From the NCBI GenBank assembly GCA_038049695.1, contig CP142458.1, positions 64,947,501 to 65,011,500 of the forward strand: a DNA stretch of 64,000 bases, written 5' to 3'. Numbering within the stretch: the first letter of the stretch is position 1; every line of letters starts with the position of its first letter. This document shows, piece after piece, positions 954 through 64,000 of the stretch. The translations under genes and the position numbers were made by a program. A model generated the notes under the pieces. The model made no database searches. It was given only the letters and a program-made list of their open reading frames with translations, and was not told the DNA's origin. The stretch comes from Cinnamomum chago. Taxonomy: Eukaryota; Streptophyta; Magnoliopsida; Laurales; Lauraceae.

Positions 954-1496
954 TACACGTCTCTATAGAGACCATAAACGAGGACACACTTCAAAGGGAA
1001 AACCCAATTTTATTAATCATCTTTGAAAATCCATGTCTACAATGCCATATAAATAAAGACAACTTGTGCCCTAAAGAAAACTAATTAAACTGGAAGCCTA
1101 ATCCGAATTACAACTCTTTAAATAAAATTAGAAACTAATGACACATAATTAGTGAAATAAAAAGGTCCTAAATTGACTTTGGCCCTTGTTGACCGGATGA
1201 ATGCCTAAATTGACTAGGCTTGCATCATATTCATGTCTGGAATATGGACCCGAATACCTGATTGGACCTGGATCTGGACCTGATTATCAATCTGTGGTCC
1301 AAAAAGAGGGTCCATGCCGTCGTGCCCGGTTTTTTCGGGTCAGATCCTTTGGGGAACCGGGTGATCAGAGGTGTCCATGGACATCTCTAGACACCTGATC
1401 CTAGAACAGCAATGGCATTTGATTTAACCACACAATAATGAAATTGATTAAAGCTAGCATTAGCTGTATTGCTTCCTTTGTTGAATTTAATGTGAT

Positions 1497-1555
1497 AACT
1501 TTCTCAGGCTTTTGGCTAAGATCAAGTGTAGTATACTAGTCTCTCTCTCTCTCTC
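1497..1555 (+). pseudogene. Retroposed 5' fragment of U2 snRNA
   Basis: Positions 1499-1536 match the 5' end of U2 snRNA almost base for base, including TTTTGGCTAAGATCAAGTGT followed by AGTAT, which contains the branch-point recognition sequence GUAGUA. The match stops after about 40 nt and runs into a short CT tract. The 13-bp sequence AATTTAATGTGAT occurs exactly on both sides (1484-1496 and 1556-1568), the signature of LINE-mediated insertion. The fragment is far too short to be a working U2 gene and lacks plant snRNA promoter elements at the usual spacing. It lies just upstream of EXS exon 1, in the presumed 5'UTR or its intron. Confidence 0.88.
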
Positions 1556-1607
1556 AATTTAATGTGATGTAACTTTGTAATATGATATATTGTTATTCTG
1601 TCTGCAG

Positions 1608-1658: not shown

Positions 1659-22196
<20,538 letters not shown>

Positions 22197-39599: not shown

Positions 39600-39770
39600 C
39601 CTCAAGTGTATTCCAACCTTCTACCACTTCAAGGACAAAGCAATGGAGTTAGGTATACTCTTAACACTCTGAGAACCTTCTACCACTTCAAGGACAAAAC
39701 AATGGAGTTAGGTATACTCTTAACACTCTGAGAACCTTCTACCACTTAAAGGACAAAGCAATGGAGTTAG
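39600..39770. repeat. 59-bp tandem array (R) at the Copia target site
   Basis: About three units of roughly 59 bp (AACCTTCTACCACTTCAAGG, then ACAAAGCAATGGAGTTAGGT, then ATACTCTTAACACTCTGAG) belong to the right LTR of the older Copia. The same units recur at 41,701-41,799, 54,127-54,225 and 55,993-56,078. A single diverged unit at about 36,325-36,390 in the left LTR shows the array arose by amplification in the right LTR. Confidence 0.88.
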
Positions 39771-40150
39771 TGTTGGAAAATAGGTGGGCCATTCAGATAG
39801 GTTTCAAAAACTTTTGACCCACTTGATGTAGGGATCAACTGTCTAGAAGGCAACAAACCCAATTCAGGATGTAATCCCTCAAACTCATAAACCATGTACA
39901 ACAACATAACCTATCTAGAAGATAGAAAATAACACATAAACATGCAGCCACGAAATCCACAACATACAAGGATGTAGATATACCTTTGGAGCTTGGTAGT
40001 GCTCTAATGGAGGCTTTGAGTTCTTTCCTTGATGATGAACACCTTCACTAATCAAATCAGAATCTCCAACACCCTTTGATCTTCCACGCTATGTCCCATA
40101 TCAGATTCTCTTTTCTTAAGAAGATGGTGGGATCTCCAAGAGAAAAACCC

Positions 40151-43100
40151 TTGGATTCCATCAACTTATTCTGGTTGAGGATGGTCGCAAGTGGATTGAA
40201 AGTATTTGAATTTATGCTTGAAATACTGTAGCACATAACCATACATTCAATTAATGAATTTAAATGCTTGAAATACTGTAGCACATAACCATACATTCAA
40301 TTAATGAATTTAAATGACATTAAGGTTTCGTATTCTACCAAATTTATATGGAATCCTCATAACCACCAAATTCAGAATACATAGGAATCTCAATCCCCGG
40401 GGTATGCCTCCTTAGGGAGTGCAAATACCAACTAGATTGGTGCGGATCAAAGTTGGTCATAATTAGGATTAAGACTAACTTTCCATGATCCTATTCATTC
40501 ATTATTATCTAGGTATCTCATACCAAATAATGAATGACTCCCGATTAGCTTCGGTTTCTAAAATAAATGAGGTAAATCCTTGGGGATACTACATCATTAT
40601 TTTAGTTAAGTGTGACCCACCAACTAGCATTGCATGACAATCGTTGCGAGCAGCTCCTCCTTGGGGAGTGGGCCCCCGCCCCGTCTCACCAACACTATCC
40701 ATAGGAGATCCATATCTAGTAACCAGACAAATAAAAGCCCTCCGTGGGGAACGGCCATTCTCAAGATGGCGCGAGGCTAATACTTTCCTTCCAATGGACC
40801 TATGGTGGAAAACCATGGGGATTTCTAAATATAAATGCCCCGCTCCCACTTAATATTTTAGAATTTGAGGATTTCTTTATAAGGTATTAGGGCCCACATG
40901 TATACATATGAACATCAAATCATCTCATGATATTATCAAAGAATAGTTCCAAGTCAAGTTATTTTAAGGAAAGTCCAGTTTCTAAATTAGTGTTACCAAT
41001 GTGTCCATCTCATGGGTCATTAACACTAATTAGAACTCTTTCCAAAAATTAATTTGATTTGACCAATTTTAGTAACTTGCTATGTTTGGATCAGATCTGG
41101 AAATTTTCTAATTTAAGCATGCATCCATAAATAGAAAGTGCTAAAAATAGAAACTAGTCATCTCCTCCACATGGCCCAAGCGGAATAGACTTCTTGGACT
41201 TCTAGACTTTCCAAAACTTCTGGAGTTCATCAAACTCTTTGGGCAACTCTAAAACACTTTTGGTAATCTTCAAACTCTTTTAGAGTCCAACATCGCTTTC
41301 CTTCTTTGTCTCGGACATCACCAGAATTTACAAATTTAGAAAAATTACATAAATTCATATGCCTCAATTATGAGACTTACATGGTAATCTAAACATGGAA
41401 ATAAAAGGGCTATAAGGAAATTCATCATGCCTTGCCCTTTCACGGGAAACCAAGGAAACCATGACGCCCTTTACATTTAGCCTTAAATAAACCAATCACC
41501 ATAAATAGAAAGCAAAAGACTTGTGGGCCATTTGGAGAGGACATTATCACCTGCAAGTTAGTATCTCATACAACAAAGCATCTCACAAAACCAGGTTACC
41601 AAACCATAATGGAAAAACAAGATGCCAAAAGTAACCACCCTTTTAATACATGCACTTCGCGGAGGGGGTCCGGGGGTGTCCCCCGGCGGTGGTCGAGTTG
41701 AGAACCTTCTACCACTTCAAGGACAAAGGAATGGAGTTAGGTATACTCTTAACACTCTGAGAACCTTCTACCACTTAAAGGACAAAGCAATGGAGTTAGT
41801 GTTGGAAAATAGGTGGGTCATTCAGATAGGTTTCAAAAACTTTTGACCCACTTGATGCAGGGATCAACTGTCTAGAAGGCAACAAACCCAATTCAGGATG
41901 TAATCCCTCAAACTCATAAACCATGTACAACAACATAACCTATCTAGAAGATAGAAAATAACACATAAACATGCAGCCACGAAATCCACAACATACAAGG
42001 AGGTACATATACCTTTGGAGCTTGGTAGTACTCTAATGGATGCTTTGAGTTCTTTCCTTGATGATGAACACCTTCACTAATCAAATCAGAATCTCCAACA
42101 CCCTTTGATCTTCCACGCTATGTCCCATATCAGATTCTCTTTTCTCAAGAAGATGGTGGGATCTCCAAGAGAAAAACCCTAAAGGAAACTAGAAGAGAAA
42201 CTATAAGAGGGAGAGGAAGAGAGGAGTGCAACTCTTGCACTATTATATGGGCTGGGCGTGAATCCCTATGTAGAGTAACATTAGGGATGTCCAAGGCTCT
42301 CTTCTTATCCTTTTATAGCATTGAAGTCACCTCCTCTTATTAATTGAAATAGAAGTCTTACTTCTACTACAATTAGTTGCTTACTACATCACAATTAGAA
42401 GTCTTACTTCAAATATGATTAGTAACTTCCTCTTTTACTAATTAAAATAGAAGTCATACTTTCATTAATAATTAGTAACTTACTATTACCACTATTAGAA
42501 GTCTCACTTCAAATAGAAATAGTAACTTTTTATTTCCTTTTAGAGTTCTACTATAATTAGTATCTTTCTAATATATTGGGCTAGCGTGGGGACCACTAGG
42601 GATTCCTTAGAAAGCTGGCTCCAACTGGGACACGCGACCCCACATCTCATGTGCAATCCGGGCCCACAATTAATTGCAAATAACTCCACTATATAAATGC
42701 AATTGTACTCCAGTCTTAGGAATATATTTCAATGAAGTCCCTAAACTTTCCAATTACCACAAGTAGGCCCCTCCATCATTATCCATGGATCAATTGGAAT
42801 AAATCTGTCTCATCCAATATTAGATCCACATTTTATTATCCTTGAACAGCAATTAGTTATAGTAATCATTTGGTACCGATCCAATTAACTCTTAATCGGA
42901 ATGGGTGCGCACTTACCAATGATAAATCCATTAATTGACATAAGGGGATAATGTAGATAGATTCCATCTTGATCATTGCATGTTCCCACAGTCCTACTAC
43001 CATATGCCCAAGACACCGAGGTGTTGACCTACAGTTGGCCTCACTCATTGGTGACTCAAAGCAAATGAATAAACATAAACTTGAGTTCATCAATGTCTCA

Positions 43101-43567
43101 GGATTGAGAGCCTATTGCTAGGAAATTATGAGAGCAATCCTTAAATCGAGACAGTATTTGATAAGGTGTTTCTCATGGTCCTTCAATACATCCAATGTAC
43201 CAGCACTATGATCCAGAATCTTATATTTTGATGATCGAGACAAATCATACTATCTCATAGTGATCAAAGTATTGCAACCTTGTCAGATGAGATGCCCAAT
43301 CTCATCACTGGTTGTGAAGATATTTTAAGTATAAGATTTATGACACATATCTCTCGTATGTGGATTTCATCCATATACATATATTACATCTAATATACTA
43401 ATGGGACCCGGTTCATCTCATTAACCATTATGTCATATATATTGGTCATGTGCATGAAGTAATAAATCACATTCATCTCATGAAAGGAAAGAATGATTAT
43501 ATTGATAAATAAAGAAATTAATCAATCTATTCATCATATACTGGTATTGAGACCATAAAATCTAACA
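40151..43567. repeat. 3.4-kb repeated block, copy A
   Basis: The block is a unique segment U (40151-41700), two units of the 59-bp array R (41701-41799) and an LTR-type unit L (41800-43567). It is nearly identical to copy B at 52627-55992. Copy A has an extra 50-bp tandem duplication (40215-40264 repeated at 40265-40314) that copy B lacks. Confidence 0.9.
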
Positions 43568-46500
43568 ATCTCCCACTTGGGCTCAATGCCAGTAAGGGTT
43601 GCATCTCATGCCCATCCCATCTACATGTTGCTCAAAAACTTTGGTAGTCAAAGGCTTAGTAAAGGGATCTCCCAGATTGTCTGCAGAGTTTATCTAGGTG
43701 ATAGCAGTATCACCTCTCTGCACAATCTTTCCGATCATGTGTAACTACCTCTGTACATGTTTTTGGCTTCTGGATTCCTTGGACTTATCGACTGCCCTGC
43801 TGTTATCACAGTAAACTGTGAGCGGCTGTCTTGCCAAAAATACCACTCCAAGTTCCATAAGGAATCTTTTGAGCCAATCTGCTTCTTTAGTTGCTTCTCA
43901 AGCAACTATAGCATAAACACATACCCAGAAGTTTATATCTTGGAATCCTTATCTGACATGAAGTCAGAATATGTGTAACCGACTGGAATCAAATCATTAT
44001 TGTCATAAATCAATATGTAATCTCTAGTCCTTCTCAAGGATTTGATAACACATCTTACAGCAGTCCAATGGTTAGGACCTGGGTTAGACTGATATCTGCT
44101 GACTAAGTCCAATGCATGACAGATATCCGGTATAGTATATAGCATAGCATACATGAGGTTACTAACACCCGAAGCGTATGATATCTACCTCATCTGCTCC
44201 TTTTCCTCAGGTGTCTTGGGACACTGATTCTTGGAAAGGTGCACTCCATGCCTGAAAGGTATAATACCCTTCTTGGAGTCTTGCATAGCAAACCGTACTA
44301 GTACCTTGTCTATGTATGCATATTGGGATGAGCCTATCATCCTATTTATCCGGTCTCAATGGAGTTTGATCCCTAGGATGTGACTAGCTTCTCCCATGTC
44401 CTTCATATCAAAAGTCTTAGCCAACTAAACCTTTTACTGTTGACAACATCCATATACCACTTTCTAGGAGAAAGATGTCGTCGACTAGAAAAATTACCTT
44501 GCCTCCTTTACTTTTCATGTACACTCATGACTCATCCGGATTTTGACAAAAATCAACTGACTTGATTTCTTAGTCAAAACGAATGTTCCTGCTTTGGGAT
44601 GCCTGCTTCAGTCCATAAATGAACATTTGCATGTTGCAAACTCTTTGCTCTTGATTGTTTAGCTATAAAACCGTCTGGCTGCATCGTATAGATGTCTTCC
44701 TCAAGATGGCCGTTGAGAAACCCATCTTGACATCCATTTGCCAAATCTCATGATCGAGATGAGCCGCAATGGATAAGAGTATCCTGATGGACTTGAGCAT
44801 GGCTACCAGCGAGAAGGTTTTCTCATAATCGATATCTTCTTTCTGAGTATATCCTTTCGTAACAAGCCTGACCTTTAAAGGTCTCAACTCTTCCATCTGG
44901 TTCTCTGTTTCTCTTGTAGACTCACTTGCACCCAATAAGTTAGATATTGGCAGGCAAGTGCACAAGTGTCCAGACCTGATTAGAGTACATAGACTCCATA
45001 TCAGCTTTCATAGTATCTTGCCAATGTCCCGAATTAATGCCATTAATTGCTTCATAATAGTTATAGGGATCTTGTTCCGGTTCTTCCGGGACTGCCTCGT
45101 AAGACTCTCCCAAGAACGAGAACCTGTCAGGGGGCCTGACTATGCTCCCACTATGACAAGGCACTGGTGTAATTACTGGGTTAGGTAAGGGCGCTTCTTC
45201 CTTAGGTTCGGTCATACTAGGATTTGGAATTGTTTGCTCTTGAATTTCTTCCAAGATCACATTTTTCTAAAAGTTTCCGGTCTATCATATAATCTTCCTA
45301 CAGAAAAACCGCATTAGTGCTCACCATCACTTTTGTTCTCTAGGATTATAGAATAACCAACCTTTAGTTCATTAGGATATCCTACAAACGTGCATACTTC
45401 CAACTTTGCTTCCAACTGATCCGTCTTAACCTTTAGCACATGTGCCGGACAACCCCAAATATGTAAATGTTGTAGACTAGACTTTCGCCCGGTCCATAAC
45501 TCCTGGGTAGTCTTAGGTATAGACTTAGATGGTACGAGGTTTAGTATGTACATCGCAGTATCCAAGGCGTATCCCTAAACGGATATAGGTAATCCTGAGA
45601 AACTCAGTATAGACTTGATCATATCTAAAAGAGTCTGGTTCCTTCTTTCTGCTGCTCCGTTCTGTTGAGGCATACCAAGAGCAGACAACTGGGATTAAAT
45701 CCCATATTCTGATAAGTACCTCATAAAATCAGCGGAGAGACATTCTCCCTCTACTCTGACATTAATGGGTCCACACACATCAGTATACACTAATTCCAAC
45801 AAATCTTTGGCCCCATTGCCCTTTGATGAAAAAGGGCCTTTTGGTCATTTTTACCTTCCAGACAGGACCCGCAGACAGGCATTGGTTCTACCACCAATGA
45901 AGGCAAGATACCATCTTTCACTAGCCTGTCAATCCTGTTTAGGTTTATATGACCTGGCCTTAAGTGCCAAAGTTTTGTTGGATCAGATGAAGGTGATTTC
46001 CTCTTTAATGATGGTCTATTAGTTGTTTCAGTATCATGTATCTCATACATTGTGGGATTAACAAATAAATTCCATTGATTACCTTGTCAGAATACATAAA
46101 AGTACCGTATCTCTTTATGACAATTTTAGTACCAAGAGTAATAGAATAACTCTTATTCACCATACTAAAAACTGAAATTGAATTCCGCCGTAAAGACGAT
46201 ACATATAACGTGTTTGACAAAATGAATTTATCATTTGAAAAACATAATGTAATAACTCCCACTGAAACATCCTCTGCCTTAGCATCAGATCCTAGGTTGT
46301 CAATGATTTCTCCGTCACTGAACCTCCTGGTTTCCCTGAACCCCTGCAACGAATTACATATGTGATCAGTTGCCCTGGAGTCCATACACCAAGATTCTGA
46401 AGTACCAGTTGTAAAACTAACTTCAGAAATAAGTGACTCAATCATACGTGAGGTCTTCTTCTTAGACAGATATTCTGGACAACTCATTTTTCAATGTCCT

Positions 46501-47499
46501 GTCTTACCACAATGAAAACACTTTCCTTTTACTCCCGTACCCTTAGCCTTGGCCATACTACAAGTAGAACCATTCTCCACCTTAGGACCCTTGATGACTG
46601 ATTTCTTTTTGCTATCTCGGTCTTTGCCTTTCGGCTTGGTCCTAGCAAATGACTTTTCTGTCATGAGGGAATTTTTCTCTTTCTTCATGATTTCCTCAGT
46701 TACTGCCAACTGGCGAGAAAGCTCAGCTATGATCATTTCCAATTTATTACAATTGATCTTGAAATGATTGAAAGAATCCGGTAGTGATTGAAGGATCATG
46801 TCGATCTGCGATTCTTTATCAATCGAAACACCCAGTGCATCTAACTCATTTAGTGCGAGACTCATTTTCAACAAATGTTTTTGTACTTGGGTTCCCTCAG
46901 TCATCTTAGTGTTTATCAGCACCTTCATAGCAGCTTGCCTAGCAGGTCTAACTTGATCCGCAAACATCTCCTTTAAGCTCGATATAATATCGTATGCTGA
47001 CTTATAAGATTGATGTTGGTGTTGTAAAACACTAGACATGGATGCTTGTATAAAACATCTGGCTACCTCATTGTCTTTTGTCCATTCGGTGTAAAGGTCA
47101 TTTTCATACTGAGGTGCATGAAGCTCAGGCTCAGGAAGGGGGGGTATGTAGGGTTGTAAACGGGTCGGTTCCGGTTCGGGTCCAGGGTGGACCCGGAACC
47201 GGAACCGTTTAGTAAGGAGAGGAACCGGACCCGGACCCGAATCGGAACCAGGAAACTGGTTCCGGAACCGGTTCTGATAATTTTAATGGGAATCGGTACC
47301 GGAACCGGAACCGTTTGCGATACGGGTCTGGTTCAGCTACTAGTTGGTTCAGCTATTAATACCATAACAGTACCCCTCACCTAAGAGCTTTCCCCCACTT
47401 TTTTAATTATCTTTTGGGTGGAGCTCATTTGAGCTTTAATAATCCTTGTAGTTCACTCTCCAGCGAGCAGATTTGGTGTGGAGTAGATTTGTCTAGTTA

Positions 47500-47710
47500 A
47501 TAACAGCTTGCATGATTTGGCGTCGGTTTCATGGGAAAACACCCCTATAGATTCTTGGGAAAAATTTCAAGATGCCCCACCATGTTTACAACAGGAAGAA
47601 ACGGTCTCCCATCTCTTTTTTTATTGTCATTTTGCTAGCAACATGTGGAAGTGGCTTCTTTCAGTTAATTTTTTTCGCTACTTGGTAAATTTGTATTAAG
47701 AGAAAGAAAA
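47500..47710 (+). mobile_element. LINE zinc-knuckle fragment inside the hAT element
   Basis: The frame contains ETVSHLFFYCHFASNMWKWL, matching the zinc-binding domain at the end of plant LINE ORF2 (C...ET-x-x-HLFF-x-C-x-F-x-x-x-x-W). It breaks off after about 60 codons, and A-rich sequence follows (47,700-48,000). This is either an insertion into the hAT or sequence captured by it. Confidence 0.65.
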
Positions 47711-47999
47711 AGGGCAAAGCCCCCAAGAGAAAGAGAAGAAAAAATACAACCAAATGAAGCAACAAGAAAGGCCAACCCTTAAACAGGGAGGGCACAAAGC
47801 AACCAAAAAACAGAGCACAAAAGCTACAGAAAAAAAAAGCTGACCGACAAGGAGAAGAAGAGATCTCCACAGCTCCACAAAGCTCAAAAATAGCTAGACA
47901 CAGCACAAGTAAGCAATAGAAAGAGGGCATCACCACAAAACGAAGCTTAGCTCAACAAAGCAAAACCCAACAGAAGCCAGCAGCAAGAAGCAACAAAGC

Positions 48000-48840
48000 G
48001 ACACATTCGCTGAGCACATAACCAACTAGTAGCTGAACAGAGAATGCTTCCCTGCAAAACAAGGCACTGCCCAAGCAACTAATCCTCAATATCAAAGTTT
48101 GATCTCCTTCAGTTCATCCATTACAAGCAACCTCCAGATCCTTTGAGAATTGCCACACTGTAAAGCATCATACCCATGTGTTGAGAACATAAAGTAATCA
48201 CCAGATGCATTTTATAAACAGAACATGCCAACAAGATAAGCCAAAACCAACTGTATGCTGTCACCCTGACCTGATAATTAACAATGATCATATTCAAATA
48301 ATAAGGCATACAGACCCATTACAGCAGAATATGTGTAAGAGAAAAAACAAAAAGGAAATACTCTCTAGGCATATTTCACTTTATCATAACCACATCACTG
48401 TCAATGTTGAATTTCCATGTTCCTCACAATGAGATAGACCATGTCACCAAAGACTGCTTCACAGAAAATCATCCTTATATGATGATTGATCAAACTACAA
48501 GTCTACATCCAATAAGACATCGCCCATAAGCTTCTTCAATTCTATTCTTCACAGCACAGTGAGTCATCACTCATCACTCATCAGTCTATGGCATGCTTCA
48601 CCTAAACAAACATGAGTTAATAAAACTCTCATTCAAAAGGACTATTCAAACCAAAATTAAAAATAAGTAAATGTGTGACTCACTAATCATTCCAAAAGGT
48701 GACTATCACTTTCATTTGATGTCCTAGTTGCAGTCTCTTCTTTATCAAACTTGGCTGCATTTGTGATTGTGTAGTGATGAGATTGAAGATCTAAAAAATA
48801 AACTTAATGTTAGACATCTTAATGAATCTAAACCCAAAAT
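48000..48840. other. hAT interior downstream of the transposase
   Basis: AT-rich sequence without a recognisable second gene. It presumably holds the transposase 3'UTR. Confidence 0.4.
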
Positions 48841-48843
48841 AAA

Positions 48844-50850
48844 TCATATAACAGTAAAAGAAAAAAAGTTACCTTTTGTTGAACTTCTCAACCAATCTTG
48901 ACAACACACCAAAGCCTCTACTGTAGCAGGGAGTAAATTGCTCCTGTAATCATCAATTGTTCTGCCACCAGTACTAAATGCTGATTCTGATGCAACGGTG
49001 GATACCGGAATGGCCAAGATATCACGAGCCATTCGAGCAACTTCTCGGTATTTGGCTACATTGGCTTTCCACCAAACTAGGATGTCAAAAGCCTCTTCAT
49101 CTTCATCGGGCCATAGTCCTTCATCCAAATACAACTCCAAATCTGACTTTCTTTCAATGGATTTATTTTCTTTGAGAAACCCTTGGAGGCCAAGTTTATA
49201 TTTATCAACATACGTGAGTGGAGAAGCAACACTTGATGCTGTCCCAGAACTATTGCTAGCACTGCCACTGGAACTTCCAACATTGGTTGAAAGTCTTCCA
49301 TCAAAAGTATTCTTGGTTGAGTCAATAGCATATTCATTGTAAAGGCTTGTCAAAGCAAGCCTAACATCCATAATCCTTGCATCAGACTCATCACCATAAA
49401 TCAATGGAAAGTAATATTCGATTACTTTAAACTTGAATCGAGGATCAAAAAATGCAGCAATTGCTAACGGTGTGGAAATGATATTCCAGTATTTTTTAAA
49501 CTTGACAATCATTTTCCCAGCCATATCTTTGATAAAAGATTCTGAACTAGTGCACCATTCTATCAAATGCAAGTGAAGCATGCTAACATCTGAGAAATAC
49601 AAGTTCGATGTTGGGTACTTAGTGCCTGAAATTTTTTCTGTCATCTCAAAAAATACTTGCAAACATTTACATATTTTTTGAACATTTTTCCATTCCTCAT
49701 TGCTTGGGGCAAATTTGTATCCACTGTCACGATCACTTAACCGTTCGAAAGCCTCCTTGAACTGTATCGTTGTTTCTAGCATCTCAAAAGTAGAGTTCCA
49801 CCTATTCAAACTATCAGGTTGAATTTTCTTTCTTGGAGCTTATACTTGCCTTGCAATTTCATTAAACCTTTGTTCTCTTAAATGTGAAGCTCTGATATAT
49901 TTTACACTTTCACGCACTTTAAAAATTACCTCACGTATGGAATCCATACCATCTTGAACTATCAAATTTAAAATATGAGTGGCACAATGCACGTGGAACA
50001 TATCTCCATTGGACAAAAGCAAGCCCTTAGCAATGAGCTTTGACTTGAGCTCCCGAACAACAACATCATTGGTAGTACAATTATCTAAAACAATGGCACA
50101 CAGTTTTTTATCGATGTTCCAACTATACAATCTGTCTAAGATGCAATTACAAATTACTTCGCCGGTGTGGGGAGCTTCAACAGAGCTAAATGCAATGATC
50201 TTCTTTTGCAAATTCCACTCATCATCAATAAAATGACATGTTAAACACATGTACCCAAGATTTTGGTTAGAGGTCCACATGTCAGTTGTCAAACTCGCCC
50301 GACATTTTAGATTTTCCAAGAGATCATAAAGCGTTTGTTTCTCCTCATTGTGAATTTTTATAATATCGTTCTTCAAAGTATTCCGTGACACGATTCTAAA
50401 CAACGGTTGAAGGCCTTTTATGAAATTTCGAAACCCCTCATATTCTACAAATCGAAATGGCAATTCATGCATTATGACCATGTGTGCAAGATCATGCCTA
50501 CTTTTTTCTTGATCAAATTTGAAATTTTGAATTGCACTAACTCCTCCATTCTCTTCCCCAATTTGTAGAATTTGTTGCTGTATATCAACTTTCCCCCGCT
50601 GCTTTAGTTTGTAAAGCACACAATGTTTTAAATGTTTAAACAAATGTGAAGTTCCGTCTTTGCTATTCCCATTCAGTAATTTCTTACAATGGTTACAACT
50701 TGCTTTTACAGCTCCATTGTGTTGTGTAATTCTTGTAAACTCAGTCCAAACCGGAGATGTTAGCTTCCTTTTTTTTTGAGATACCCTAGAAACTTCAATG
50801 GAATCATTGGTTTCGGCATTGTCAATATCAATGGGTTCTAAATCTGACAT
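48844..50850 (-). pseudogene. hAT transposase (zf-BED, RNase H-like, hAT C-terminal dimerisation), one in-frame stop
   Basis: The minus-strand frame starts MSDLEPIDIDN at 50850. Residues about 30-80 form a BED zinc finger (W-x-F... CNHCKKLL...HLFKHLKHC). RNase H-fold acid motifs follow: TTDMWTSN and AIVLDNCTTND. The C-terminal block is the hAT dimerisation region with ILAIPVSTVASESAFSTGGR and LVCCQDWL. The frame is open for 336 codons, meets a TAA at 49,840-49,842, and continues in the same frame for about 332 more codons to 48,844. So the full product would be near 670 residues, normal for plant hAT transposases, apart from that one stop. The stop lies just before NRWNSTF, between the two catalytic-region halves. 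A functional copy elsewhere could still mobilise this element. Confidence 0.93.
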
Positions 50851-52300
50851 TTTATCTGCATATAAATAATTACAAACTCTATTATAATTATATGATTACA
50901 TGTATGAGCTGTCATTCACAACGAGATCACACAAAAAAACACATTTATAAGATCAAGCAACATGCAATTACTGAGCAAATGATGGGCAAGACACAGAGGT
51001 TCTCACAAGACAAGAGTGAAAATGAAATGCTCCTTTCAGATAAAAGGCAAAGAGTCAACCCACGATCATTTTAGTGCTTGGGTGATGACATATCTCATGT
51101 TGAGACCCCTCCTCTTTTTTTTTTTCACTTGTTATCTCAGCCTATTCCATATAACTTTTCAAGACTCCCAACATTGTAATTGGCCTGTTCTCACTAACAA
51201 TCAACATGCAAGAGATTGAAACAGCTGCACTTTGGTTTTGTTTCAATCATTCTGAGTTGTTGGGGATGGACCGAACTGGCCTTTTCTTATCTTAGACAAA
51301 AAGTAAAAAGGCCAAGGACCCAAAAGAACCTTTCTTGGATGGGAAAGAGTGGTCCACAGGAATGCTTTTCCTGAGGCCACACATATGACCTAACACAACA
51401 CAAATTAAATTGATCCTGGCTGTTCCACATGTTGGATCACAATGAAATCAACAAATAAGCAGTGGGTTACATCCCTACTCAGAAAAATCTCACAATCGGT
51501 ACTGTTTAAAATAGTTCAGAACTTCAGATTCCTTATTGCATAATTTCAAAACATGCCCATCTAAATGAGTGTTTTAGATAAGGACAGATGTGAAACAAAC
51601 ATAATTTGGATCAGCACAAGACAGAGACACAGAGGTTATTCTTCTGGATTCCTTCCAGATTATCGGCATGTGGTTGAGAGATCTGTACAATTACATGAAA
51701 AGGATATTATTAATCACTTGAACTCATCATCTTATGAAAGATCAGCCTCCATTTCTCAACCTCAAACCTAACAATCTTAATATTTTGACAAGAGAAGAAG
51801 CAGCTGATCCAAATCATGAAAGACTCCATAGATCTAAAGTCAATCATGCCTATCACAACATAGATCTGATACAAATTGTTGGAAGCATAGAAATCCCCAA
51901 AACATGAGAAATAAGATCCCCTTACGAGATTTTCTTACTAAAAAGACAAACCCTAACCCTAGTTGTCGATCCTTTGCAGGTGCAGATGAAAGTAGAAGAA
52001 TAAAATCGAGAAGAGATTTCATACCTAAAAATATGTAAAGAGTATTCGGAATGAAACCCCAAATTTGTAAGATAATATGAACCCTAAAAAGTAAAAACAA
52101 GTCAAAGGAAGAAATGAAATGAACTCACATGCTTCTTCTGTAACAGCACTACAGTAGCGAAATCAAGAATGAGGAGAGAGGGCCGGAGCCGGAGCGGGAG
52201 AGAAGGCCGGAGCCGGAGCCGGAGCAGGAGAGAGAGCCGGAGACGAAATGAGTAGAGAGGGCGGCAGCTTGTGGTTTGGGGACGAAAGCTTGTGGTTCCA
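50851..52300. other. hAT interior upstream of the transposase
   Basis: Non-coding leader of the transposase gene on the minus strand. The section at 52,170-52,260 is GGCCGGAGCCGGAGC-rich and gives an Arg-rich spurious frame. No second gene is recognised. Confidence 0.4.
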
Positions 52301-52626
52301 ATCCCATACACAGTGATACAGAAACCTAAATATGTTAGAGACTTAAAGTATATTGGGTCGGGTCCAGTTCCGGGTCCACGGGTCTGAGCTACTGTGGATC
52401 CGGAACCGGACCCGTTTAGATAACGGTTCCAAAAAAAGGACCCGGAACCGGAACCATTTACTTATCGGAACCAAAATAAGGACCCAAACCCGGAACCTAA
52501 CGGGTCGGAACCTTCGGGTAATCGGATAATCGGGGACCCATTTACAACCCTAGGGGTATGGTAAGGACATATCTGCATCCTGAAGCTGTCAGGATAATAT
52601 CCAGGGTCCTTTTCCAGTCTATAAAG

Positions 52627-55600
52627 TTGGATTCCATCAACTTATTTTGGTTGAGGATGGTCGCAAGTGGATTGAAAGTATTTGAATTCATGCTTGAAAT
52701 ACTGTAGCACATAACCATACATTCAATTAATGAATTTAAATGACATTAGGGTTTAGTATTCTACCAAATTTATATGGAATCCTCATAACCACCAAATTCA
52801 GAATACATCGGAATCCCAATCCCCGGGGTATGCCTCCTTGGGGAGTGCAAACAGCACCTAGATTGGTGCGGATCAAAGTTGGTCATAATTAGGATTAAGA
52901 CTAACTTTCCATGATCCCATTCATTCATTATTATCTAGGTATCTCATACCAAATAATGAATGACTCCCGATTAGCTTCGGTTTCTAAAATAAATGAGGCA
53001 AATCCTTGGGGATACTACATCATTATTTTAGTTAAGTGTGACCCACCAACTAGCATTGCATGACAACCGTTGCGAGCAGCTCCTCCTAGGGGAGTGGGCC
53101 CCCGCCCCGTCTCACCAACACTATCCATAGGAGATCCATATCTAGTAACCAGACAAATAAAAGCCCTCCGTGGGGAACGGCCATTCTCAAGATGGCGCGA
53201 GGCTAATACTTTCCTTCCAATGGACCTATGGTGGAAAACCATGGGGATTTCTAAATATAAATGCCCCGCTCCCACTTAATATTTTAGAATTTGAGGATTT
53301 CTTTATAAGGTATTAGGGCCCACATGTATACATATGAACATCAAATCATCTCATGATATTATCAAAGAATAGTTCCAAGTCAAGTTATTTTAAAGAAAGT
53401 CCAGTTTCTAAATTAGTGTTACCAATGTGTCCATCTCATGGGTCATTAACACTAATTAGAACTCTTTCCAAAAATTAATTTGATTTGACCAATTTTAGTA
53501 ACTTGCTATGTTTGGATCAGATCTGGAAATTTTCTAATTTAAGCATGCATCCATAAATAGAAAGTGCTAAAAATAGAAACTAGTCATCTCCTCCACATGG
53601 CCCAAGCGGAATAGACTTCTTGGACTTCTAGACTTTCCAAAACTTCTGGAGTTCATCAAACTCTTTGGGCAACTCTAAAACACTTTTGGTAATCTTCAAA
53701 CTCTTTTAGAGTCCAACATCGCTTTCCTTCTTTGTCTCGGACATCACCAGAATTTACAAATTTAGAAAAATTACATAAATTCATATGCCTCAATTATGAG
53801 ACTTACATGGTAATCTAAACATGGAAATAAAAGGGCTATAAGGAAATTCATCATGCCTTGCCCTTTCACGGGAAACCAAGGAAACCATGACGCCCTTTAC
53901 ATTTAGCCTTAAATAAACCAATCACCATAAATAGAAAGCAAAAGACTTGTGGGCCATTTGGAGAGGACATTATCACCTGCAAGTTAGTATCTCATACAAC
54001 AAAGCATCTCACAAAACCAGGTTACCAAACCATAATGGAAAAACAAGATGCCAAAAGTAACCACCCTTTTAATACATGCACTTCGCGGAGGGGGTCCGGG
54101 GGTGTCCCCCGGCGGTGGTCGAGTTGAGAACCTTCTACCACTTCAAGGACAAAGCAATGGAGTTAGGTATACTCTTAACACTCTGAGAACCTTCTACCAC
54201 TTAAAGGACAAAGCAATGGAGTTAGTGTTGGAAAATAGGTGGGTCATTCATATAGGTTTCAAAAACTTTTGACCCACTTGATGCAGGGATCAACTCTCTA
54301 GAAGGCAACAAACCCAATCCAGGATGTAATCCCTCAAACTCATAAACCATGTACAGCAACATAACCTATCTAGAAGATAGAAAATAACACATAAACATGC
54401 AGCCACGAAATCCACAACATACAAGGATGTAGATATACCTTTGGAGCTTGGTAGTGCTCTAATGGAGGCTTTGAGTTCTTTCCTTGATGATGAACACCTT
54501 CACTAATCAAATCAGAATCTCCAACACCCTTTGATCTTCCACACTATGTCCCATATCACATTCTCTTTTCTCAAGAAGATGGTGGGATCTCCAAGAGAAA
54601 AACCCTAAAGGAAACTAGAAGAGAAACTAGAAGAGGGAGAGGAAGAGAGGAGTGCAACTCTTGCACTATTATATGGGCTGGGCGTGAATCCCTATGTAGA
54701 GTAACATTAGGGATGTCCAAGGCTCTCTTCTTATCCTTTTATAGCATTGAAGTCACCTCCTCTTATTAATTGAAATAGAAGTCTTACTTCTACTACAATT
54801 AGTTGCTTACTACATCACAATTAGAAGTCTTACTTAAATATGATTAGTAACTTCCTCTTTTACTAATTAAAATAGAAGTCCTACTTCCATTAATAATTAG
54901 TAACTTATTATTCCCACTATTAGAAGTCTAACTTCAAATAGAAATAGTAACTTTCTATTTCCTTTTAGAATTCTACTATAATTAGTATCTTTCTAATATA
55001 TTGGGCTAGCGTGGGGACCACTAGGGATTCCTTAGAAAGCTGGCTCCAACTGGGACACGCGACCCCTCATCTCATGTGCAATTCGGGCCTACAATTAATT
55101 GCAAATAACTCCACTATATAAATGCAATTGTACTCCAGTCTTAGGAATATATTTCAATGAAGTCCCTAAACTTCCCAATTACCACAAGTAGGCCCCTCCA
55201 TCATTATCCATGGATCAATTGGAATAAATTTGTCTCATCCAATATTAAATCCACATCTTATTATCCTTGAACCCCAATTAATTATTGTAATCATTTGGTA
55301 CCGATCCAATTAACTCTTAATCGGAATGGGTGCGCACTTACAAATGATAAATCCATTAATTGGCACAAGGGGATAATGTAGATAGATTCCATCTTGATCA
55401 TTGCATGTTCCCACAGTCCTACTACCATGTACCAAGACACCGAGGTGTTGACCTACAGTTGGCCTCACTCATTGATGACTCAAAGCAAATGAATAGACAG
55501 AAACTTGAGTTCATCAATGTCTTAGGATTGAGAGCCCATTGCTAGGGAATTATGAGAGCAATCCTTAAATCGAGACAGTATTTGATAAGGTGTTTCTCAT

Positions 55601-55992
55601 GGTCATTCAATACATCCAATGTACCAGCACTATGATCCAGAATCTTACATTCTGATGATCGAGACAAATCATACTATCTCATAGTGTTCAAAGTACTGCA
55701 ACCTTGTCAGATGAGATGCCCAATCTCATCACTGGTTGTGAAAATATTTTAAGTATAATATTTGTGACACATATCTCCCATATGTGGATTTCATCCATAT
55801 ACATATATCACATCTAATATACTAATAGGACCCGGTTCATCTCATGAACCATTATGTCATATATATTGGTCATGTGCATGAAGTAATAAATCACCATTCA
55901 TCTCATGAAAGGAAAGCATGATTATATTGATAAATAAAGAAATTAATCATTCTATTCATCATATACTGGTATTGAGACCATAAAATCTAACA
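52627..55992. repeat. 3.4-kb repeated block, copy B
   Basis: U (52627-54126), R (54127-54225) and L (54226-55992), matching copy A with a few differences per hundred bases at most. It joins gag-type sequence directly at 52,626/52,627, whereas copy A joins a truncated LTR start at 40,150/40,151. Confidence 0.9.
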
Positions 55993-63137: not shown

Positions 63138-64000
63138 TCAAATCAACTGCAAGATTAGCATAAAACACCTAAATTGATTCTTATCAATGATAAAAATTAG
63201 ACACTTGATGATACCAAGTCTCACTTGAGAGCTAGATCCATAAGACATCTTCCCAAGCTCATGAGCAAACACATTTACATTTCTAAAAATATGGGCAAAG
63301 CAGATCTCTTTAAACTTGGAGCTTGAGTCTTTGATATCTAACAAAATAGGATGGATTGACCAATTCATCGACCCATTAATGGCTCGAATCACCTCACAGG
63401 CGTCCGACAAAAGATGGATCTTATGGAATCCCCACAAATTAGATTTGTGTAGCTTATGGAGAATTGCCCTTGCCTCAGCTTCTTTTGGAGAGTTAACCTT
63501 GGGACCATCGACGAATCATGCATGCACCCAAGAACCATCAAACCAAATAGCATAGTCAAAGCCCAATTTTCCATCCACGACTCTAAATGAGGCGTATGTA
63601 AACACCTGAGCCTTGGCCCTTGTGTACCTCAAACTCAAATCCTTGTGATTGTTTGAGGATTCTTGATGATCCTCTTTAGTCTTGCCCATTGATTCACAAA
63701 TCAAACGGCAAGCATATAGGATTGTGGAAATGGGCTTAATTTTTGTGCCCCTAAAAGTAAAATCATTTATGGTTTTCCACAAGGCCCACCAAAAAGCCAA
63801 GACCCATGATTTAATTTGAGGATGGATTGGAGGGCTCATCAATTGGTTAAACTTTATAAAAGAAATCCACCAATCCCTAATTATAGAGGACCCATGGGAT
63901 GCAAAAGATACAAACCAACCCGCCCTAGCATGATCACATAGAAAGAGAGCATGCTCCACAAATTCTTCTGATTTTATGCAAATAGGGCCGCAGGCCTAAT
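63138..64000 (-). mobile_element. LINE ORF2 3' part (zinc domain + RNase H), cut by the window edge
   Basis: The minus-strand frame reads EHALFLCDHARAGWF (end of the LINE zinc-binding domain), then an RNase H-like domain with FDGSW near 63,530, PKEAEARAILH, LLSDACEVIRAI and FRNVNVFAHELGKMS (the R/N...AH-x-L motif). A single in-frame TGA at 63,516-63,518 sits between DGSWVHA and FVDGPKV; otherwise the frame is open from 63,959 to 63,138. The upstream reverse transcriptase would lie beyond 64,000. It could also be a stand-alone RNase H-like gene derived from a LINE, but the stop argues for a decaying copy. Confidence 0.8.

Follow-up and report, generated by a model that had tools for sequence, protein, structure and literature searches.

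A truncated U2 copy between direct repeats

We analysed a window of 64,000 nucleotides (the whole stretch of DNA under study, C8:64947501-65011500 of G000, the 1.06-Gb genome of 14 contigs that we also searched). Close to its left end it carries a short insert with the 5' end of U2 snRNA, enclosed by direct repeats, and, downstream of it, the start of an EXS-family gene; close to its right end lies a domain that is perhaps a remnant of a LINE. These features are:

1484-1496, plus strand: left target-site duplication, AATTTAATGTGAT, an exact repeat whose final AT doubles as U2 nt 1-2
1495-1534, plus strand: U2 snRNA nt 1-40, from stem-loop I through GUAGUA, with mismatches C4A, G12A and C14G
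1535-1555, plus strand: 21-nt tail ACTAG(TC)8, read from the sequence between the end of U2 and the right duplication
1556-1568, plus strand: right target-site duplication, AATTTAATGTGAT, whose start AATTTAAT resembles U2 nt 52-59, AGTTTAAT
2205-4312, plus strand: start of an EXS-family gene, with coding exons at 2205-2267, 3751-3789, 3911-4003 and 4196-4312 placed by reading frame and GT-AG borders
63141-63515, minus strand: RNase-H-like (RVT_3) domain near the right window edge, perhaps a decayed LINE end

Compared with a green-alga-like U2 (the pair L003/L004, among four eukaryotic-contaminant stretches from a single contig scan), 37 of the 40 bases in the U2 part of the insert agree with U2 nt 1-40, and the second-best 40-mer on either strand of the window reaches 24/40. 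With this difference, and with reversed-pattern controls that returned 0 matches, a chance resemblance was rejected. The Rfam U2 model (RF00004) scored 42.2 bits (E = 8.2e-7 in the 1.2 kb searched); because this lies just below the gathering score of 46, an Rfam scan of the whole window at the gathering threshold was empty. A sequence-only reading of this DNA had recognised 40 nucleotides of the U2 5' end between the two copies of a perfect 13-bp direct repeat. Both parts hold: the similarity to this U2 reference is above chance, and the window holds just two instances of AATTTAATGTGAT, starting at 1484 and 1556. The extent given to the fragment needs correction, since the AT that closes the left repeat is also U2 nt 1-2 and the homology therefore starts at 1495 and not at 1497, the clear match ending at 1534 before ACTAG and eight TC units. 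The 5' end of the insert thus coincides with nt 1 of the RNA, and the end of clear identity at nt 40 represents a 3' truncation. In place of an oligo(A) tail, which is absent, the insert has a CT-rich one without counterpart in the typical tailless case.

The contig bearing L003 is labelled as a cyanobacterial MAG yet carries U1 and U2 genes, which indicates that this MAG is contaminated. An exact 29-nt piece of U2 (nt 23-51) is found on the minus strand of L003 at 767-795, where the longest flanking direct repeat is 6 nt. A search of viral contigs for exact 32-mers of U2 found none.

We rejected a functional U2 snRNA gene at this place because identity stops at nt 40 and the plant snRNA upstream-element consensus RTCCCACATCG is absent from the 100 bp 5' of the insert. 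The RNA of the insert is predicted to fold no better than its shuffles (z = 0.91). Neither result favours the suggestion, made in the same reading, that a transcribed copy could pair with U2 targets or disturb splicing, and the window copy is probably an inert scar. The EXS gene is also farther away than the roughly 100 bp that had been supposed, as 637 bp separate the end of the insert from the first placeable EXS ATG. Pfam EXS matched the joined exons (E = 3.7e-9) over residues 56-103, which are encoded by the fourth exon and the last part of the third; exons one and two were placed by frame and splice borders. An untranslated EXS exon may be encoded closer to the insert than 2205; TTCTGTCTGCAG, which resembles a 3' splice site, ends at 1607.

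The window contains other apparent mobile elements. At 623-958, a small LTR element that looks like a TRIM-type retrotransposon comprises two 118-nt copies with 91% identity (630-747 and 837-954, outer ends 628/953) and is bracketed by the 5-bp repeat TACAC; its right repeat contains, at 852, ATCCCACATCG, the consensus of the plant snRNA upstream element. At 39670-55731, direct repeats that are 96-99% identical and roughly 12.4 kb apart surround copia-type gag and RT fragments on the minus strand. Within them, at 48847-50895 on the same strand, is a transposase of hAT type that has a BED finger; the whole may be an LTR element in which a DNA transposon is nested.

Clipped U2 copies across the genome

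The sequence of the insert has seven matches in the genome, namely the insert itself and six further U2-like loci. Shorter U2 patterns gave many more: nt 3-29 occurred at 138 places when 3 mismatches were allowed and nt 20-40 at 23 when 2 were allowed (of which, by our own arithmetic, about one is expected by chance at 2 mismatches), with 0 matches for both reversed controls. Sequence reaching to nt 40 is therefore found at far fewer places than the first 29 nucleotides. With the Rfam U2 model, at least 31 matches were obtained in the genome, at least 24 of them above the cut-off, the window copy not being one of those; these are lower bounds, as the scoring covered 46 of 53341 first-look candidates. 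A comparison scan for U6 yielded 21 places, every one at 2 or 3 mismatches.

We compiled 109 records, of which 23 came from the nt 20-40 scan, 30 from the nt 3-29 scan and 56 were fetched separately. Among the 138 matches to nt 3-29, 100 were listed: 30 as loci, 56 as fetched records, 5 that also came from the nt 20-40 scan, and 9 that were left out (eight members of repeated clusters and C2:66144325). After removal of four records that each repeated a place already included, the records represent 105 places, a partial catalogue in that it draws, for nt 3-29, on the 100 listed of the 138, less the 9 left out. Left flanks divide these 105 places into 88 groups, 76 of which begin at U2 nt 1-4. 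The breakpoint lies at nt 25-36 in 62 of these 76, a range whose lower edge is not fixed because our patterns miss copies ending before about nt 25. Substitutions in the copies peak at the CpG of U2 nt 11-12, as expected of old methylated DNA, and the G12A change of the window copy falls there.

Exact GGCTAAGATCAAGTGTAGTAT has three occurrences among the matches in the assembly, none of which is a complete U2 by eye, and the top match to the U2 model (L065, 145 bits) has an altered branch-site-recognition region, GTGGAGTAT. The standard U6 5' end has no exact occurrence among the matches in this genome. The assembly, or the version of it that was searched, may lack the true snRNA genes.

Target-site duplications and 3' junctions

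Direct repeats with a score of 9 or more flank 46 of the 109 records; mismatched pairs of flanks reach this score in 1.1% of trials. Eleven of the 46 were artefacts in which a stretch had matched itself (L019, L020, L023-L027, L031-L033 and L147), and four of the remaining 35 were duplicates (L050, L055, L140 and L141), leaving 31 copies or, since L042 and L106 sit in one duplicated cluster, about 30 independent events. Their duplications measure 10-22 bp (median 15), and the copies start at U2 nt 1 (23 copies), nt 2 (four) or nt 3 (four). T is the most frequent base just before the cut (18 of 31 sites) and A just after it (15/31); the nick site of the window copy, TTG/AATTT, resembles TT/AAAA only loosely.

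Of the 31 copies, 23 have a duplication that adjoins or overlaps U2. At these 3' junctions, U2 and the duplication have a mean of 2.52 nt in common (n = 23), as against 0.76 nt at random flank sites and 0.48 nt when the same duplications are set against random U2 breakpoints. At least 3 nt are common in 12 of the 23 copies versus 6.2% of random sites; if the remaining eight copies are counted as zero, our arithmetic gives a mean of 1.87 nt, with 3 nt or more in 12/31. The window copy stands apart by its 21-nt gap between U2 and the duplication, which is 6 nt or less in the other 30.

Origin of the insert

We consider it highly probable that the window copy is a 3'-truncated ('tailless') U2 retropseudogene, made by an L1-type enzyme primed inside the U2 RNA and most likely inert. 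Retroposition of a 3'-truncated U2 without poly(A) had already been proposed in the sequence-only reading. The duplication and the genome-wide catalogue uphold that part, the catalogue making the mechanism firmer than the window locus alone could; the LINE named there as the agent is a likely one. In the mechanism that we propose, an L1-type LINE enzyme would nick the target, and the freed DNA end would anneal to an internal segment of U2 and not to poly(A). Reverse transcription would then proceed up to U2 nt 1, and staggered joining of the second strand would produce the 13-bp duplication.

An L1-type enzyme is the likely agent because the class shows the published signs of target-primed reverse transcription inside snRNAs. 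In Doucet 2015 (PMC4476161), human 3'-truncated snRNA copies have target-site duplications, breakpoints in single-stranded segments and complementarity at the 3' junction, and Luo 2015 (PMC5322556) argues for internal priming. Some plant L1 lineages have been proposed to have a relaxed choice of template, according to a review (PMC3747384). Within the window, the one LINE-like trace that we met is the RNase-H-like domain listed above.

The tail admits several explanations. For the window copy, priming may have taken place at about U2 nt 52, followed by distortion and dinucleotide expansion of nt 41-51 into ACTAG(TC)8, an account that we hold tentatively, with rather more doubt than conviction. 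Priming near nt 52-60 does happen in this genome, since L017 breaks at U2 nt 56 and has a 15-bp duplication. Among 76, the window copy and L021 alone have A12 and G14 in common, and the two may descend from one U2 variant; as L021 reads on as U2 beyond nt 50, a longer U2 origin of the window copy is slightly favoured. The tail itself resembles U2 nt 41-51 no better than chance, 886 of 5000 random 5-mers followed by (TC)8 and 1410 of 5000 shuffles doing as well. That the right duplication matches U2 nt 52 was observed post hoc, and a match as good is reached by 899 of 20000 random window sites when nt 41-72 are allowed, by 2235 with nt 41-110 and by 3174 with nt 41-190 (42, 128 and 185, respectively, of 1091 nearby sites).

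A variant of the same explanation, differing from it as to the tail, is a template switch: the enzyme would have started on another, CU-rich RNA and copied ACTAG(CU)8 before moving to U2 near nt 40 and continuing to nt 1. This would account for all 21 nucleotides of the tail, and insertions that combine an snRNA with poly(A) or L1, attributed to template switching, are on record (PMC4476161 and PMC13174262). L022 likewise breaks at U2 nt 40 and, near 1480-1560, passes from U2 nt 1-40 into an A-rich stretch and poly(A), so that it looks like a U2/poly(A) chimera. We nevertheless regard such a switch at the window locus as possible but unlikely, because the donor RNA is hypothetical and such a tail is seen in none of the other 30 copies; moreover, almost all flowering-plant L1 elements are reported to have poly(A) at their ends, and RTE elements to have TTG-type repeats there, rather than (CT)n (PMC3747384). 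A more particular version takes TACTAGT(CT)n after GTAGTA as the copied 3' end of an intron, with branch site and polypyrimidine tract, from which the enzyme would have switched to U2 at the U2:branch-site helix. If true, the insert would record, as a fossil, two RNAs paired in the spliceosome. It predicts the palindrome TAGTATACTA at the junction, which is present and was noticed post hoc, one of equal length lying within 2 nt of 406 of the 64000 window positions; we give this version hardly any credence.

We weighed two further explanations. U2-gene DNA, duplicated or used as filler, could have been joined at a staggered break, and three loci (L008, L010 and L011) do resemble DNA duplicates, with AGTCCCACATTG-type sequence upstream. 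The window copy, on the other hand, begins exactly at the RNA 5' end and lacks the snRNA upstream element in its 100 bp of upstream DNA; the 105 places fall into 88 distinct left-flank groups and 31 copies have duplications. On these grounds (start at RNA nt 1, distinct flanks, duplications) DNA duplication was rejected as very improbable. A SINE family with a U2-derived head would explain why many dispersed copies have the U2 5' end in common, and SINEs with snRNA-derived heads have reportedly been published. Against it, the sequence 3' of the U2 part varies between groups (by eye, in 30 records), and 23 of 31 copies have their duplication immediately next to U2, so that a common body would have no place between the two. 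With no common body or tail after the U2 part in the records read, this candidate was rejected too, as highly improbable. The 3'-truncated retropseudogene remains our preferred reading of the insert.

Taken together, the catalogue suggests that U2 retropseudogenes of some 30 nt, bearing the signature of internal priming known from mammals, can build up in large numbers in a plant genome. If so, the choice of RNA by plant LINE enzymes could be read from breakpoints and junctions.

Comparison with known systems

Tailless snRNA retropseudogenes were reportedly treated by Schmitz 2004. The abundance of clipped U2 copies in a plant appears mildly new, the window copy itself being ordinary: the open-access literature, in the portions available, contained no account that we recognised of so many U2 copies in a plant, subscription papers lying outside this scope. 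Such truncated snRNA copies have already been described in mammals and maize (PMC4476161 and PMC5322556).

Two published groups come close to the window copy. Chimeras of snRNA with poly(A) or L1 (PMC4476161 and PMC13174262) are alike in that an snRNA is fused to another 3' part within one pair of duplications; the 3' part here is ACTAG(TC)8, neither poly(A) nor a recognised LINE. The other group is that of the tailless snRNA retropseudogenes, which in Luo 2015 (PMC5322556) and Doucet 2015 (PMC4476161) have the same start at nt 1, 3' truncation, lack of poly(A) and target-site duplications; taken as a whole, the class described here is also like them in the clustering of its breakpoints and in the bases common to U2 and the duplication where the 3' part of the copy ends. 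The window copy differs from them by its additional 21-nt CT-rich tail. Luo 2015 (PMC5322556) gives only eight U2-derived tailless cases in maize. The class described here differs in belonging to a plant genome and in that most of its copies end at U2 nt 25-36.
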